A stretch of 64,000 nt of DNA from Cyanobium sp. CACIAM 14 (GTDB lineage Bacteria; Cyanobacteriota; Cyanobacteriia; PCC-6307; Cyanobiaceae), in NCBI GenBank assembly GCA_000708525.1, contig JMRP01000001.1, positions 310,001 through 374,000 on the forward strand. The letters run 5' to 3'. Under the pieces are notes generated by a model. That model did no database searches. It had not been told where the DNA came from and saw only the letters and a list, made by a program, of their open reading frames with translations. Shown here in pieces: positions 46,631 through 49,374 of this stretch. How positions within the stretch are numbered: position 1 is the stretch's first letter; every line of letters starts with the position of its first letter. A program made the position numbers and the translations under genes.

Positions 46631-47125
46631 ATGAGCGTCGTTCGCGATCTGATCCTCCAGGCCGATGATCAGCTCCGCTATCCCACGAGCGGCGAGCTGC
46701 GCTCGATGGTGGAGTTCCTCAGCGGTGGCGCCCGCCGTCTGTCGGTGGTGCGGGTGCTGACCGACAACGAAAGGAAGATCGTCGCCGAAGCCTCGAAGCA
46801 GCTGTTCCTGCGCAAACCCGACTACGTCGCCCCGGGGGGCAACGCCTTCGGCCAGAAGCAGCGCGCCCAGTGCCTGCGGGATTTCAGCTGGTACCTGCGC
46901 CTTGTCACCTACGGAGTTCTGGCCGGCAGCACCGAACTGATCCAGCAGATCGGTCTGGTGGGGGCCCGTGAGATGTACAACAGCCTCGGCGTCCCTCTGC
47001 CCGGCATGGTGGAAGCGATGCGTACCCTCAAGGAGGCCTCCATGGTGCTGCTGGGCAGCGAGGAAGCGGCCCTGGCCGCGCCGTACTTCGACTTCCTCAT
47101 CCAGGGGATGCAGACCTCCACCTGA
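46631..47125 (+). CDS. apcD: allophycocyanin alpha-B subunit (phycobilisome terminal emitter)
   Basis: Low-energy allophycocyanin variant in the phycobilisome core, sending excitation mainly to photosystem I. 164 aa from the ATG giving MSVVRDLILQADDQLRYPTSG. The bilin-attachment Cys is Cys81 in AQCLRDFSWYLRLVTYG. EMYNSLGVPLPGMVEA and the residues just before the chromophore distinguish ApcD from ApcA and ApcB. An in-frame start at 46541 is unlikely. It points into the 1.2-kb repeat-rich stretch. Confidence 0.94.
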   Translation: MSVVRDLILQADDQLRYPTSGELRSMVEFLSGGARRLSVVRVLTDNERKIVAEASKQLFLRKPDYVAPGGNAFGQKQRAQCLRDFSWYLRLVTYGVLAGSTELIQQIGLVGAREMYNSLGVPLPGMVEAMRTLKEASMVLLGSEEAALAAPYFDFLIQGMQTST

Positions 47126-47166
47126 GCGCAGGCGTCTCGGTCGAGACACACCGCTGGACTTGCGGC

Positions 47167-47184
47167 TGGTCCCGAATGAGACGC
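47167..47184 (-). repeat. degenerate GTCTCA/GGACCA repeat, cluster A
   Basis: The minus strand reads GCGTCTCATTCGGGACCA. Just beyond it (47134-47147) lies a related half-site, GTCTCG-gt-CGAGAC, a 6-2-6 inverted repeat. Same orientation as clusters B and C. Confidence 0.7.
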
Positions 47185-47245
47185 GAGGGACCATGGTCGC
47201 GGTCCGCCGCGTTCCGATCCGAGCTGCACCAGCAACGCCTCTCCC

Positions 47246-47275
47246 CCTCGATGTGGCAGAGCTGCCACATCGAGG
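47246..47275. repeat. perfect 14+2+14 inverted repeat
   Basis: Left arm CCTCGATGTGGCAG at 47246-47259, spacer AG, right arm CTGCCACATCGAGG at 47262-47275. It starts 121 bp after the apcD stop. As RNA it would form a very stable stem, so it could terminate apcD transcription, but no T-run follows and the length is beyond an ordinary terminator. Confidence 0.9.
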
Positions 47276-47463
47276 CTGCAACGACGCCGCCGGACAGGCT
47301 GGGAGGACGTCCGCTGGGCTTCCCAATCAGGGATTTCCTATGTCGGCAGCCATGGTCGTGCCGGCTGACACCGGAGTGGCGCAGCGGGTTCAAAGCATCA
47401 ACCGGCCGCTGCCGTTGAGAAGGTGCACGACCGGATCGGATGCAACCCAACGATCCCGCATAT

Positions 47464-47489
47464 CCCGAATGAGACGCCTTTCTGGTCTC
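47464..47489 (-). repeat. degenerate GTCTCA/GGACCA repeat, cluster B
   Basis: The minus strand reads GTGAGACCAGAAAG and then GCGTCTCATTCGGGA, i.e. the tail of one unit followed by the head of the next, as in cluster C. The head is identical to cluster A over 15 bases. Confidence 0.7.
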
Positions 47490-47543
47490 ACGCCAAGTCA
47501 CGGTCAGGATAAAAAGGAACGGAAACCAGGGGCGCTTTGGCGA

Positions 47544-47885
47544 ATGGTGCGAACCCGGGGAACGGAAGCGTCTCCCCGCCGGGAGAGAGCGGGCGTCCTC
47601 GGGGAGCGCCTCGACCTTCTCATCCGAGAATCAGAGCTGGTCCCGATCATGGACCAGGCCGCGGCGCATGGGATGGCCGCGCAACTCTCGCAGGCCGGGC
47701 TCCTCCTGTCCCAGTTGCACCAGCCGCCGCCCCGCCCACGCCAGCGCCCCCAGAGGGACTGGAGGGCGATGCGGCAGGACGACGTACCTGGCGTATCTGT
47801 GTCAAAGACAGATGCGCAAGCCCGATCAGATCAGATCCCGGAAGGGTTTTCGGGTGTCCAGATTCTGTCCATCGGCGCTGCCTGA
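47544..47885 (+). CDS. doubtful hypothetical ORF inside the repeat region
   Basis: A 113-aa frame with a plausibly structured N-terminal half (RAGVLGERLDLLIRESEL, MDQAAAHGMAAQLSQAGLLL) rich in Leu, Ala and Glu, followed by Pro-rich and polar sequence. A GGATAAAA element about 30 bases upstream could be a -10 box, but there is no clear ribosome site and no family is recognised. Cluster-type repeat sequence (TGGTCCCGATCAT) lies inside it at 47639. I include it only because it is the least implausible frame here; it may be remnant coding DNA. Confidence 0.2.
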   Translation: MVRTRGTEASPRRERAGVLGERLDLLIRESELVPIMDQAAAHGMAAQLSQAGLLLSQLHQPPPRPRQRPQRDWRAMRQDDVPGVSVSKTDAQARSDQIPEGFSGVQILSIGAA

Positions 47886-48101
47886 GGGACTGTGGCCAGG
47901 ACAGATCCTCTCGAAGTGCCTGGATGGTCCCGGAGCCAATGACTCATCCCGGAACCAGGGGCTTCGACACTCGCCATGGGGCCTCAAGGACCCACGGGTC
48001 AGCCCTCCGCAGTTGAAATCACCGAAAAATCACGATCCCCCTGGACGCACTGTTGACGCAGTCCTGGACCCGGTCCGCGTCTCAGGCTGGACATGTGCAT
48101 C

Positions 48102-48129
48102 CGGTCATTGGCCAGCTGGCCAATGACCG
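48102..48129. repeat. perfect 28-bp palindrome
   Basis: Left half CGGTCATTGGCCAG (48102-48115) is followed immediately by its exact reverse complement CTGGCCAATGACCG (48116-48129), with no spacer. A zero-spacer palindrome of this size is more like a protein-binding or recombination site than a transcription terminator, since the centre cannot form a loop without melting. It lies 216 bp from the end of the J-domain gene. Confidence 0.92.
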
Positions 48130-48241
48130 ATGGGACAGCGCCAAGGCGATGGAAGGGAAGGCACGGGAGCTCCCGGTGGGCATCCAGGCCAGATGCTTCC
48201 CGAGCCGCGCGGACCGGCGCGGAACAAGAACAGCCTCCAGA

Positions 48242-48310
48242 TGGTCCCCGATGAGACACGAAACTGGTCTTGCCTGAGACGCAAGGCTGGTCTCTGCATG
48301 AGACCAGCCT
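48242..48310 (-). repeat. three tandem degenerate ~23-bp units (cluster C) with 11-bp inverted repeat
   Basis: On the minus strand three units follow one another: TGGTCTCATGCAGAGACCAG, GCGTCTCAGGCAAGACCAG and GTGTCTCATCGGGGACCA, joined by CCTT and TTTC. The first unit together with its flanks is also a perfect inverted repeat: AGGCTGGTCTC (48284-48294), loop TGCAT, GAGACCAGCCT (48300-48310). It lies 36 bp downstream of the J-domain gene's stop. Confidence 0.85.
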
Positions 48311-48345
48311 GAGCTCCCTGGGACGCAGTCTTTGGGTTCTGTGCG

Positions 48346-49374
48346 TCAGCGATCCTCGGAGGCCCGTTGGCGGTAAAGCTCCTTGAGGAGCTGGTAGGCC
48401 TCGTTGAGTCGCCGCATCGCCTCCACCGACCCTCCCGCATCGGGATGGTGGTTCTGGGCCATCTCCCGGTAGGCCTCCCGGATCTGGGCAAGGGTGAGGC
48501 GCTGGCCGGGGTCGGTGGGAAGCTGCAGCAACCGCAGGGCGCCGTGCAGGGTCATGGTGTGCTCGAGCGTCTGGAAGGAGGTACCCCTGCGGCGACGACG
48601 GAAACGGTGCACGAAGCGACGAATCAGGGTGGGGATGCGCAGAGTCAGGGTGGATCCGCTGAAAGGATCCTCGAGCACCCCGGCGGTGACCATCACCCGC
48701 TCGAAGCTCGGTGGCCCCTCGCTCCAGCCGGGCACGAACTGCAGCATCACCTGACAGGCCGAGGACCAGGTGAACGTGCGGCCGTCGCTCTGGTCGGACT
48801 GGGGCCAGATGTCCTGAGCCAGCCAGACCATGGCCGCTTCCAGAACGGTGGCGGTGGCCGGCTGGCCGTACAGCGCCAGCCAGTGGTTGCTCACCTCCTC
48901 CATCGCCTGCTGCACCACGTCGCTGGCGAGGGGAGGCAAGGGAGGCGACCCCGAAGGCGAGGGAGCAGGGGAGCGCAGACTGCGCCGGATCACCTCGGAC
49001 CGGCGCCGTACGAAGCCAGGCAGATCGATCCCCCCGCCACCGCGCCCGCTGGGGGCAGGAGTCTGCGCCGGCCCATCCCATTCGAACTCGGCCTGGAGAG
49101 ACTCGATCGCCCCGCGGCCCACCAGCACCAGAGCGCCCTGCTCCTCGAGATCTCCATCACCCTCATGGAGGTGGGGAGCAGGTTCGAGGGATCCGCCGAG
49201 CTCGTCCCTCTCGTCGCCGGCGCCGGAGTCGAAGAGATCGTCGAGCAGCCGCTGGAGCACGTCGCCGCGGCTGCGGATGCCCCACTCCCGCCGCAGGTTG
49301 TCGAGATGGGAGACCAGCTCGCGGGAGAGATCGAGGCTGATCCTCTGCTTGGCGTCGTTCCTTCGCTCAGCCAC
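48346..49374 (-). CDS. ribbon-helix-helix / J-domain protein
   Basis: 342 aa with an unusual combination. The N-terminus looks like a ribbon-helix-helix (RISLDLSRELVSHLDNLRRE...RGDVLQRLLDDLF, residues 11-48). An acidic then Pro/Ser-rich linker follows, then a mostly alpha-helical region (ASDVVQQAMEEVSNHWLALYG), and a C-terminal J-domain from about residue 270 with the HPD motif in AQNHHPDAGGS. J-domains recruit DnaK; the other parts suggest a specific DNA or protein client. No zinc-finger or substrate domain of classical DnaJ is present. It lies upstream (minus strand) of the repeat region and 43 bp downstream of the DUF3370 gene. Confidence 0.82.
   Translation of the reverse strand: MAERRNDAKQRISLDLSRELVSHLDNLRREWGIRSRGDVLQRLLDDLFDSGAGDERDELGGSLEPAPHLHEGDGDLEEQGALVLVGRGAIESLQAEFEWDGPAQTPAPSGRGGGGIDLPGFVRRRSEVIRRSLRSPAPSPSGSPPLPPLASDVVQQAMEEVSNHWLALYGQPATATVLEAAMVWLAQDIWPQSDQSDGRTFTWSSACQVMLQFVPGWSEGPPSFERVMVTAGVLEDPFSGSTLTLRIPTLIRRFVHRFRRRRRGTSFQTLEHTMTLHGALRLLQLPTDPGQRLTLAQIREAYREMAQNHHPDAGGSVEAMRRLNEAYQLLKELYRQRASEDR

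Follow-up and report, generated by a model that had tools for sequence, protein, structure and literature searches.

A candidate dif-like terminus site between apcD and a J-domain gene in Cyanobium and its relatives

In the archaeal XerA/dif system, a single recombinase acts at one terminus-region site per chromosome without FtsK, and in the Thermococcales the dif site is flanked by inverted repeats (sections of PMC2958812). Single-recombinase variants have also been described in bacteria as XerS/difSL and XerH/difH (sections of PMC5357621); the XerS gene adjoins its site, and the system still needs FtsK (sections of PMC2958812). For cyanobacteria, the prediction of dif failed in all five that were tried by Kono 2011 (sections of PMC3025954). 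The 2019 genome paper on Halomicronema stated, in the sections cited here, that no dif was predicted in cyanobacteria, that the role of the Xer-like proteins of cyanobacteria was uncertain, and that the Halomicronema species has FtsK (PMC6416890). The words cyanobacteria, Synechoc- and Prochlorococcus are absent from the Xer review (PMC5357621), and the accessible parts of PMC7901474 and PMC3861242 added nothing on such a site. No published description of one was found among the titles and abstract openings covered, which were drawn mostly from outside the subscription literature.

The window analyzed here, a 64-kb stretch of the Cyanobium sp. CACIAM 14 genome, contains a gap between two convergent genes, apcD and a J-domain gene (hereafter J). 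We put the probability at about three in four that this gap is a replication-terminus locus in which positions 47791-47817 (the core) form a dif-like site, and that a single recombinase together with accessory repeats resolves chromosome dimers there. The antipodal, single-copy, dif-like character of the site is well supported by the sequence comparisons. The pairing of the site with the recombinase, the resolution of dimers and the role of the repeats are what we infer, and binding and recombination at the core are predictions of the same kind.

The locus resembles archaeal XerA/dif of Pyrococcus abyssi in its single recombinase, its one terminus site, the apparent lack of FtsK and the flanking inverted repeats. 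It differs in the recombinase, which has an extra conserved N-terminal stretch and for which the NCBIfam models of XerA or XerS came first, far below the cut-off (26.4 vs 220 bits for XerA), and in the site, which has another arm sequence and a 7-bp spacer instead of the 11+6+11 layout of dif. With bacterial XerCD/dif/FtsK it shares the terminus position, the presence in one copy, the near-palindromic arms and the fixed spacing, but it has a single recombinase where that system has two, no FtsK match above the cut-off and an unrelated site sequence. A single recombinase is also common to XerS/difSL and XerH/difH, although in XerS/difSL the gene adjoins the site and FtsK is needed, whereas the recombinase gene of the source genome lies 305 kb from the core. 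Because the recombinase matched none of the named Xer subfamilies (C, D, S, A) above the NCBIfam cut-off, with no XerH model among the matches, the system is not placed in any of them. We propose that the site works like XerA/dif.

The gap and its contents

The features of the locus are listed in Table 1. A preliminary description of this DNA had pointed to a convergent gap of 1,220 bp without a recognizable gene, with an exceptional density of inverted repeats and with degenerate repeats, and all three observations were borne out. None of the eight longer ORFs scanned within or overlapping the gap had a Pfam match at E≤0.01, so that neither a hidden gene nor a conserved protein family was found there, and Rfam returned no match, either at its gathering scores or at E≤1. 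Three of the six strong hairpins of the window (arms of at least 10, loop of at most 10) were inside the gap, namely the two perfect palindromes of Table 1 and a third at 48284-48310. The words GTCTCA/TGAGAC occurred 15 times in the window, 7 times in the gap and 8 times in the remaining 62.8 kb. The excess of hairpins and repeat words in the gap is well beyond chance.

Table 1. Coordinates of the features of the locus (window positions unless a contig is given)
Feature	Coordinates	Strand	Remarks
apcD, phycobilisome protein (PF00502)	46631-47125	+	Left flank of the gap; ends at 47125
Conserved convergent gap (proposed terminus locus)	47126-48345	.	1,220 bp; 874-2,116 bp across the 29 same-genus genomes with both flanks; limits set by the apcD end and the J stop
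TGAGAC repeat word	47177-47182	+	
Perfect palindrome	47246-47275	.	14-bp arms, 2-bp loop
TGAGAC and GTCTCA	47470-47490	.	TGAGAC 47470-47475, GTCTCA 47485-47490
dif-like core	47791-47817	+	Arm GCGTATCTGT 47791-47800; spacer GTCAAAG 47801-47807; arm ACAGATGCGC 47808-47817
GTCTCA repeat word	48079-48084	-	
Perfect palindrome	48102-48129	.	14-bp arms, no loop
Three palindromic units GGTCYY-N3/4-TGAGAC	48243-48310	.	Steps of 23-24 bp; TGAGAC at 48252, 48275 and 48299
J-domain gene (PF00226)	48346-49374	-	Right flank of the gap; stop at 48346
Tyrosine recombinase, own copy	G000:C1:51938-53137		Outside the window

The explanations first offered for the gap, a decayed mobile element, an intergenic repeat family or an RNA-producing locus, were not supported, the last as far as the core is concerned. 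A search of the source genome at E≤0.001, which also looked for similar sequence at unrelated loci, returned nothing beyond the gap and two matches of its palindromes to themselves; it gave no sign of an IS or MITE remnant, nor of further copies that would make the two perfect palindromes members of a REP family. The gap was syntenic in all 29 same-genus genomes with both flanks, and the core was single in nearly all genomes with its pattern (see below), which also argued against an element or a repeat family. TGAGAC stands near both gap edges and was considered as the terminal repeat of a lost transposon; this was rejected because all 29 gaps contain the word, at positions that vary from gap to gap, and because it clusters at the site in other genera. 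As for an RNA, the Rfam search was negative, and the arms of the core do not pair in several relatives. The preliminary description had further suggested that conservation only at apcD would favor a local function. That came close to the result, although a terminus or recombination site had not been considered.

The palindromes at 47246-47275 and 48102-48129 were absent from the hairpins listed for 28 other same-genus gaps and are apparently private to the source genome. Private palindromes were also seen in some other same-genus gaps, for example in locus L069 with 16-bp arms.

Comparison of 32 same-genus apcD loci, the source genome included, showed the J gene on the same piece in 29, with a gap of 874-2,116 bp in all of them; it was not found on the piece in the other three (L075, L076 and L077). 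The gap was thus kept in 29 of the 29 genomes with both flanks, own included, while its sequence diverged from one genome to another. A pairing stretch around the core was listed in 25 of the 28 other gaps, the arms being imperfect or the core diverged elsewhere.

The core sequence and its conservation

When the whole gap was used to search 60 relatives, the strongest recurring match was to window positions 47791-47819, found in 13 same-genus genomes (E≤0.001). In 12 of the 13, which had apcD on the same contig, the match lay about 0.5-1.4 kb beyond apcD and on the strand of apcD. Weaker recurring matches to a G+C-rich part of the gap (query 565-653) fell at other places and were taken as compositional. 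The consensus of the core is GCGTAYCTGY-N7-RCAGRTACGC, a near-palindrome distinct from the perfect palindromes of the gap, and the source-genome copy departs from the exact pattern only by the G at 47814.

The pattern GCGTAYCTG-N5..12-CAGRTRCGC, with 5-12 free bases in the inner stretch, was present in 79 of 201 family genomes, once in 77 of them and twice in G171 and G197, and a control pattern read backward gave 0 in all rows. Although 5-12 bases were allowed, the inner stretch was 9 bases in every match listed, and the spacing of the core is fixed. A scan of named genomes gave at least 118 stretches with the pattern. Of these, 84 also held apcD or J, including Prochlorococcus sp. AG-363-B04 (L198), and all 84 syntenic loci had Y and R bordering the spacer, at positions that the pattern had left free. 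The other 34 held neither gene, the 24 titled ones among them came from other taxa, and all 34 were treated as chance matches. When 71 loci were oriented by J, conservation was down to the background level some 2 bases beyond the core; the arms were fully conserved in these loci because the search pattern had fixed them. Wherever a J match was present (71 of 71 loci), the J homologue pointed toward the core. By conservation, the core has 27-29 bp with inverted arms of 10-11 bp and a spacer of 7 bp, compared with about 28 bp, 11-bp arms and a 6-bp spacer in dif.

For 26 family genomes lacking the pattern, the scan covered at most 1.5 kb beyond the J gene, and a diverged core of 27 bases with 1-4 mismatches was found at the same place in 21. 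Among the remaining five, G225, G174 and G233 met the contig end, G066 had no J match, and G075 had no core candidate within 1.5 kb of J. The diverged core was GCGTCACTGTGTCTACAGCAGGTACGC in G092, G157, G179 and G217 and GCGTAACTGTCTATATGACAGTTACGC in G110. Overall, almost every family genome examined had the core, including the small genomes.

Several observations were made around the core. Directly 5' of the core, the sequence GACGTACCTG at 47781-47790 looks like an additional half-site in direct orientation. A weak core at the same place was recognized by eye as GTACTG-N9-CAGTAC in G075 and as GTACTG-N9-CAGCAC in G207, which we take to be Prochlorococcus MED4. Just 5' of the weak core of G207 lies an ORF of 82 aa (L477, 12956-13204), and a similar frame is readable in G075. 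In G140, a long exopolyphosphatase-like ORF and a transposase-like ORF, both named by reading, stand between the core and apcD (L156, 7130-9922), and the core remains beside J despite the displaced apcD.

The convergent flanking genes would also suit an RNA hairpin, either a terminator or a small RNA, and in some gaps the pairing continues into outer extensions of the arms, over as much as 19 bp. This reading has very little probability in our view. The inner stretch was 9 bases in every match listed where 5-12 were allowed, the arms GCGTCACTG/CAGGTACGC have two adjacent non-pairs common to several relatives, no T-run follows the core in the window, and Rfam had no match. An RNA stem is also argued against because the arms of the G092 type no longer pair fully.

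Antipodal position, recombinase and repeats

The core lay at 0.390-0.499 of the circle from dnaN, with a median of 0.477, in 22 of 22 near-complete genomes. The gene dnaN was located in 24 genomes, of which 22 were counted (21 single-contig genomes and G177), since in G197 and G249 it was on another contig. In 17 further genomes the J gene lay at about 0.33-0.495 of the circle from dnaN, lowest in G128 (0.33) and G112 (0.36); these came from 19 searched, G138 (other contig) and G168 (already counted) being left out, and rounded lengths were used for 11. In most genera seen, the site is found together with apcD and J, so the antipodal positions do not count as independent observations. No clear GC-skew switch marked the site in any of the three sequences compared (the window, G022 and G207), and only the AT skew of G207 changed nearby, 20 kb from the site.

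A data set published in 2024 bears on the same region. The vesicle DNA of Prochlorococcus MED4 was enriched at ter (826,000-832,000) and was highest, as the authors put it, “directly at the dif site” (sections of PMC10913375). The MED4 dif positions were cited by these authors from other papers, and the sections cited give no sequence for it (PMC10913375). The midpoint of the ter window equals half the length of the MED4 chromosome, so that the published dif position could have been taken from the midpoint and not from a sequence. In G207 the J gene is at 829,624-830,634, which places the homologous gap inside 826,000-832,000.

Of the 201 family genomes, 184 had a tyrosine recombinase of about 390 residues (128 of the 131 good genomes); 170 of them gave a single match to it, and 14, including the source genome, gave two or three. 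The second match in G000:C1 and 13 other family genomes (with a third in G251) is a fragment or a paralogue. Five family genomes (G121, G097, G068, G066 and G084) had a single PF00589 (Phage_integrase) match, and in G121 and G068 this sole match fell in the gene of about 390 residues. The PF00589 match of the recombinase was just above the cut-off. The residues R, K, Y-x-x-R, H and Y, which are the catalytic residues of the tyrosine recombinase family, were invariant in eight of eight sequences and present in the own copy. A PDB profile search returned only 4a8e (E 0.0043), which we take to be the P. abyssi XerA structure, an archaeal XerC-like recombinase. The first 100 or so residues were conserved and had no Pfam match; that they bind the repeats would be a guess, made by analogy with integrases of the arm-binding kind.

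At E≤1e-15, 143 of 195 genomes sampled from the class had relatives of the recombinase, 23 of the 143 belonging to the family, and the class matches at 35-41% identity may be paralogues. The co-occurrence of recombinase and site says little because both are near-universal. In G285, presumably Synechococcus elongatus, the recombinase was present, and no core with fewer than 3 mismatches was found in 380 kb mid-contig, no better than in shuffles. FtsK (PF01580) was above the cut-off in 0 of 29 family genomes, with matches below it in G158 and G075; the control gave a signal in 10 of 14 known genomes, 8 of them above the cut-off; among seven genomes outside the family, G057 had FtsK.

In the proposed mechanism, the single tyrosine recombinase would bind the two 10-bp arms of the core, cut, and then swap strands across the 7-bp spacer, and this strand swap would turn chromosome dimers into monomers ahead of division. 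Because FtsK was not found, the repeats of the form GTCTYA-N2-TRAGAC clustered around the core are proposed as accessory sites that would impose the correct topology; either a partner protein or the extra N-terminal stretch of the recombinase would bind them.

Repeat density was compared across 20 loci, each 14 kb long and taken from other genera (23,460 bases inside, 180,040 outside). Relative to the sequence beyond 2.5 kb, that within 600 bp of the core was 7.6-fold richer in GTCTCA and 31-fold richer in GTCTTA. The unit GTCTYA-N2-TRAGAC, with at most 2 mismatches, occurred 36 times within 600 bp and 14 times beyond 2.5 kb, where about 7.7 times more sequence was covered. G207 had seven copies of the unit with at most 1 mismatch in 400 kb, five of them at -316 to +386 of the site. 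The other two lay about 100.5 kb to the left and 100.6 kb to the right of the site, a near-symmetric placement that may be chance. No unit with at most 1 mismatch was found in 400 kb of G022, although GTCTCA was denser close to its site, with 4 of the 55 words lying within 1 kb. The word TGTACA was also enriched within 600 bp of the core, with 22 occurrences against 0.9 expected (L145-L164).

The antipodal position and the clustered palindromic repeats would equally fit a terminus mark for a protein other than a recombinase, such as a MatP-like organizer or a Tus-like fork trap, with the repeats as further sites. We regard this as unlikely. A fork trap is generally understood to need polarity, and a near-perfect palindrome is not polar; a single copy per genome is unlike a matS set; and the Y-N7-R spacer with a variable inside, like the carriage of the core by viruses, fits a crossover site better.

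Viral copies of the core and their possible meaning

In IMG/VR, at least 120 viral stretches held the core, compared with 6 for a mirror pattern of equal make-up. These stretches were not dereplicated, and 82 distinct 7-base spacers were present among them. None of the 120 listed viral loci held apcD or J, and Y and R bordered the spacer in 115. The clusters of neighboring ORFs in the listed loci, named by PHROGs through one representative each, included terminase (57), ThyX (26), T7-like RNA polymerase (19), a second terminase (18) and portal protein (13). TGTCCA was within 120 bp to the left of the viral core in 55 of the 120 listed (to the right in 20), and TGGACA was within the same distance to the right in 52 (to the left in 20). 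The GenBank metagenomic phage uncultured MedDCM-OCT-S28-C3 (AP013539) had the core with no mismatch, and nothing within 2 mismatches was found in 16 other phages of record (17 partial genomes, loosened pattern). The Prochlorococcus-type core had three matches in viral contigs, not clearly more than chance (6 for a looser mirror control).

No homologue of the host recombinase was found in the 120 listed loci at E≤0.01. PF00589 was matched in 1 of the 28 viral records checked, which were picked from the longer of the 120 listed and may be fragments; L303 and L345 were omitted as likely chance matches. The viral spacer was equal to a host spacer in 10 of the 120 listed loci, against 2.9 expected from a column shuffle (0 of 2000 as high). 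These carriers resemble the IMEX (CTXphi, VGJphi, TLCphi and GGI) in having a dif-like site on the element and, in 27 of the 28 records, no integrase match. They differ in being relatives of tailed dsDNA phages, with spacers mostly unlike those of known hosts and no integrated copy found. We propose that the core-bearing phages may borrow the host recombinase, either for integration or for the resolution of their own multimers.

The same viral copies could mean that the core is mainly a phage or plasmid attachment site, kept through repeated integration and not for dimer resolution. The spacers shared with hosts would agree with this, as would a second core amid plasmid- or phage-like ORFs (by reading) on a 10.4-kb contig of G197 (C20; L491, 3306-3332), which is perhaps the resolution site of an extrachromosomal element. 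Against it, no second core was found by pattern in 48 chromosomal loci, nor near the displaced apcD of G140, and the core is kept in nearly all family genomes examined, even in small ones. We therefore give this explanation only a slight chance, and return to the reading of the core as a dif-like site for the chromosome.

A more specific form of that reading is that picocyanobacteria have a resolution system of their own, free of FtsK, with a single recombinase, an array of accessory sites and an N-terminus of the arm-binding type, and that integrase-free T7-like and siphovirus-like phages, with copies of the site, hijack this recombinase. We offer it tentatively, as somewhat less probable than even.

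Picocyanobacteria, the relatives of Synechococcus and Prochlorococcus, are very abundant photosynthetic cells, and for the resolution of their chromosome dimers the comparison provides a defined sequence of 27 bp and a candidate protein. The core might also explain why Prochlorococcus vesicles contain terminus DNA, and it offers a candidate route by which picocyanobacterial phages may hijack their hosts.
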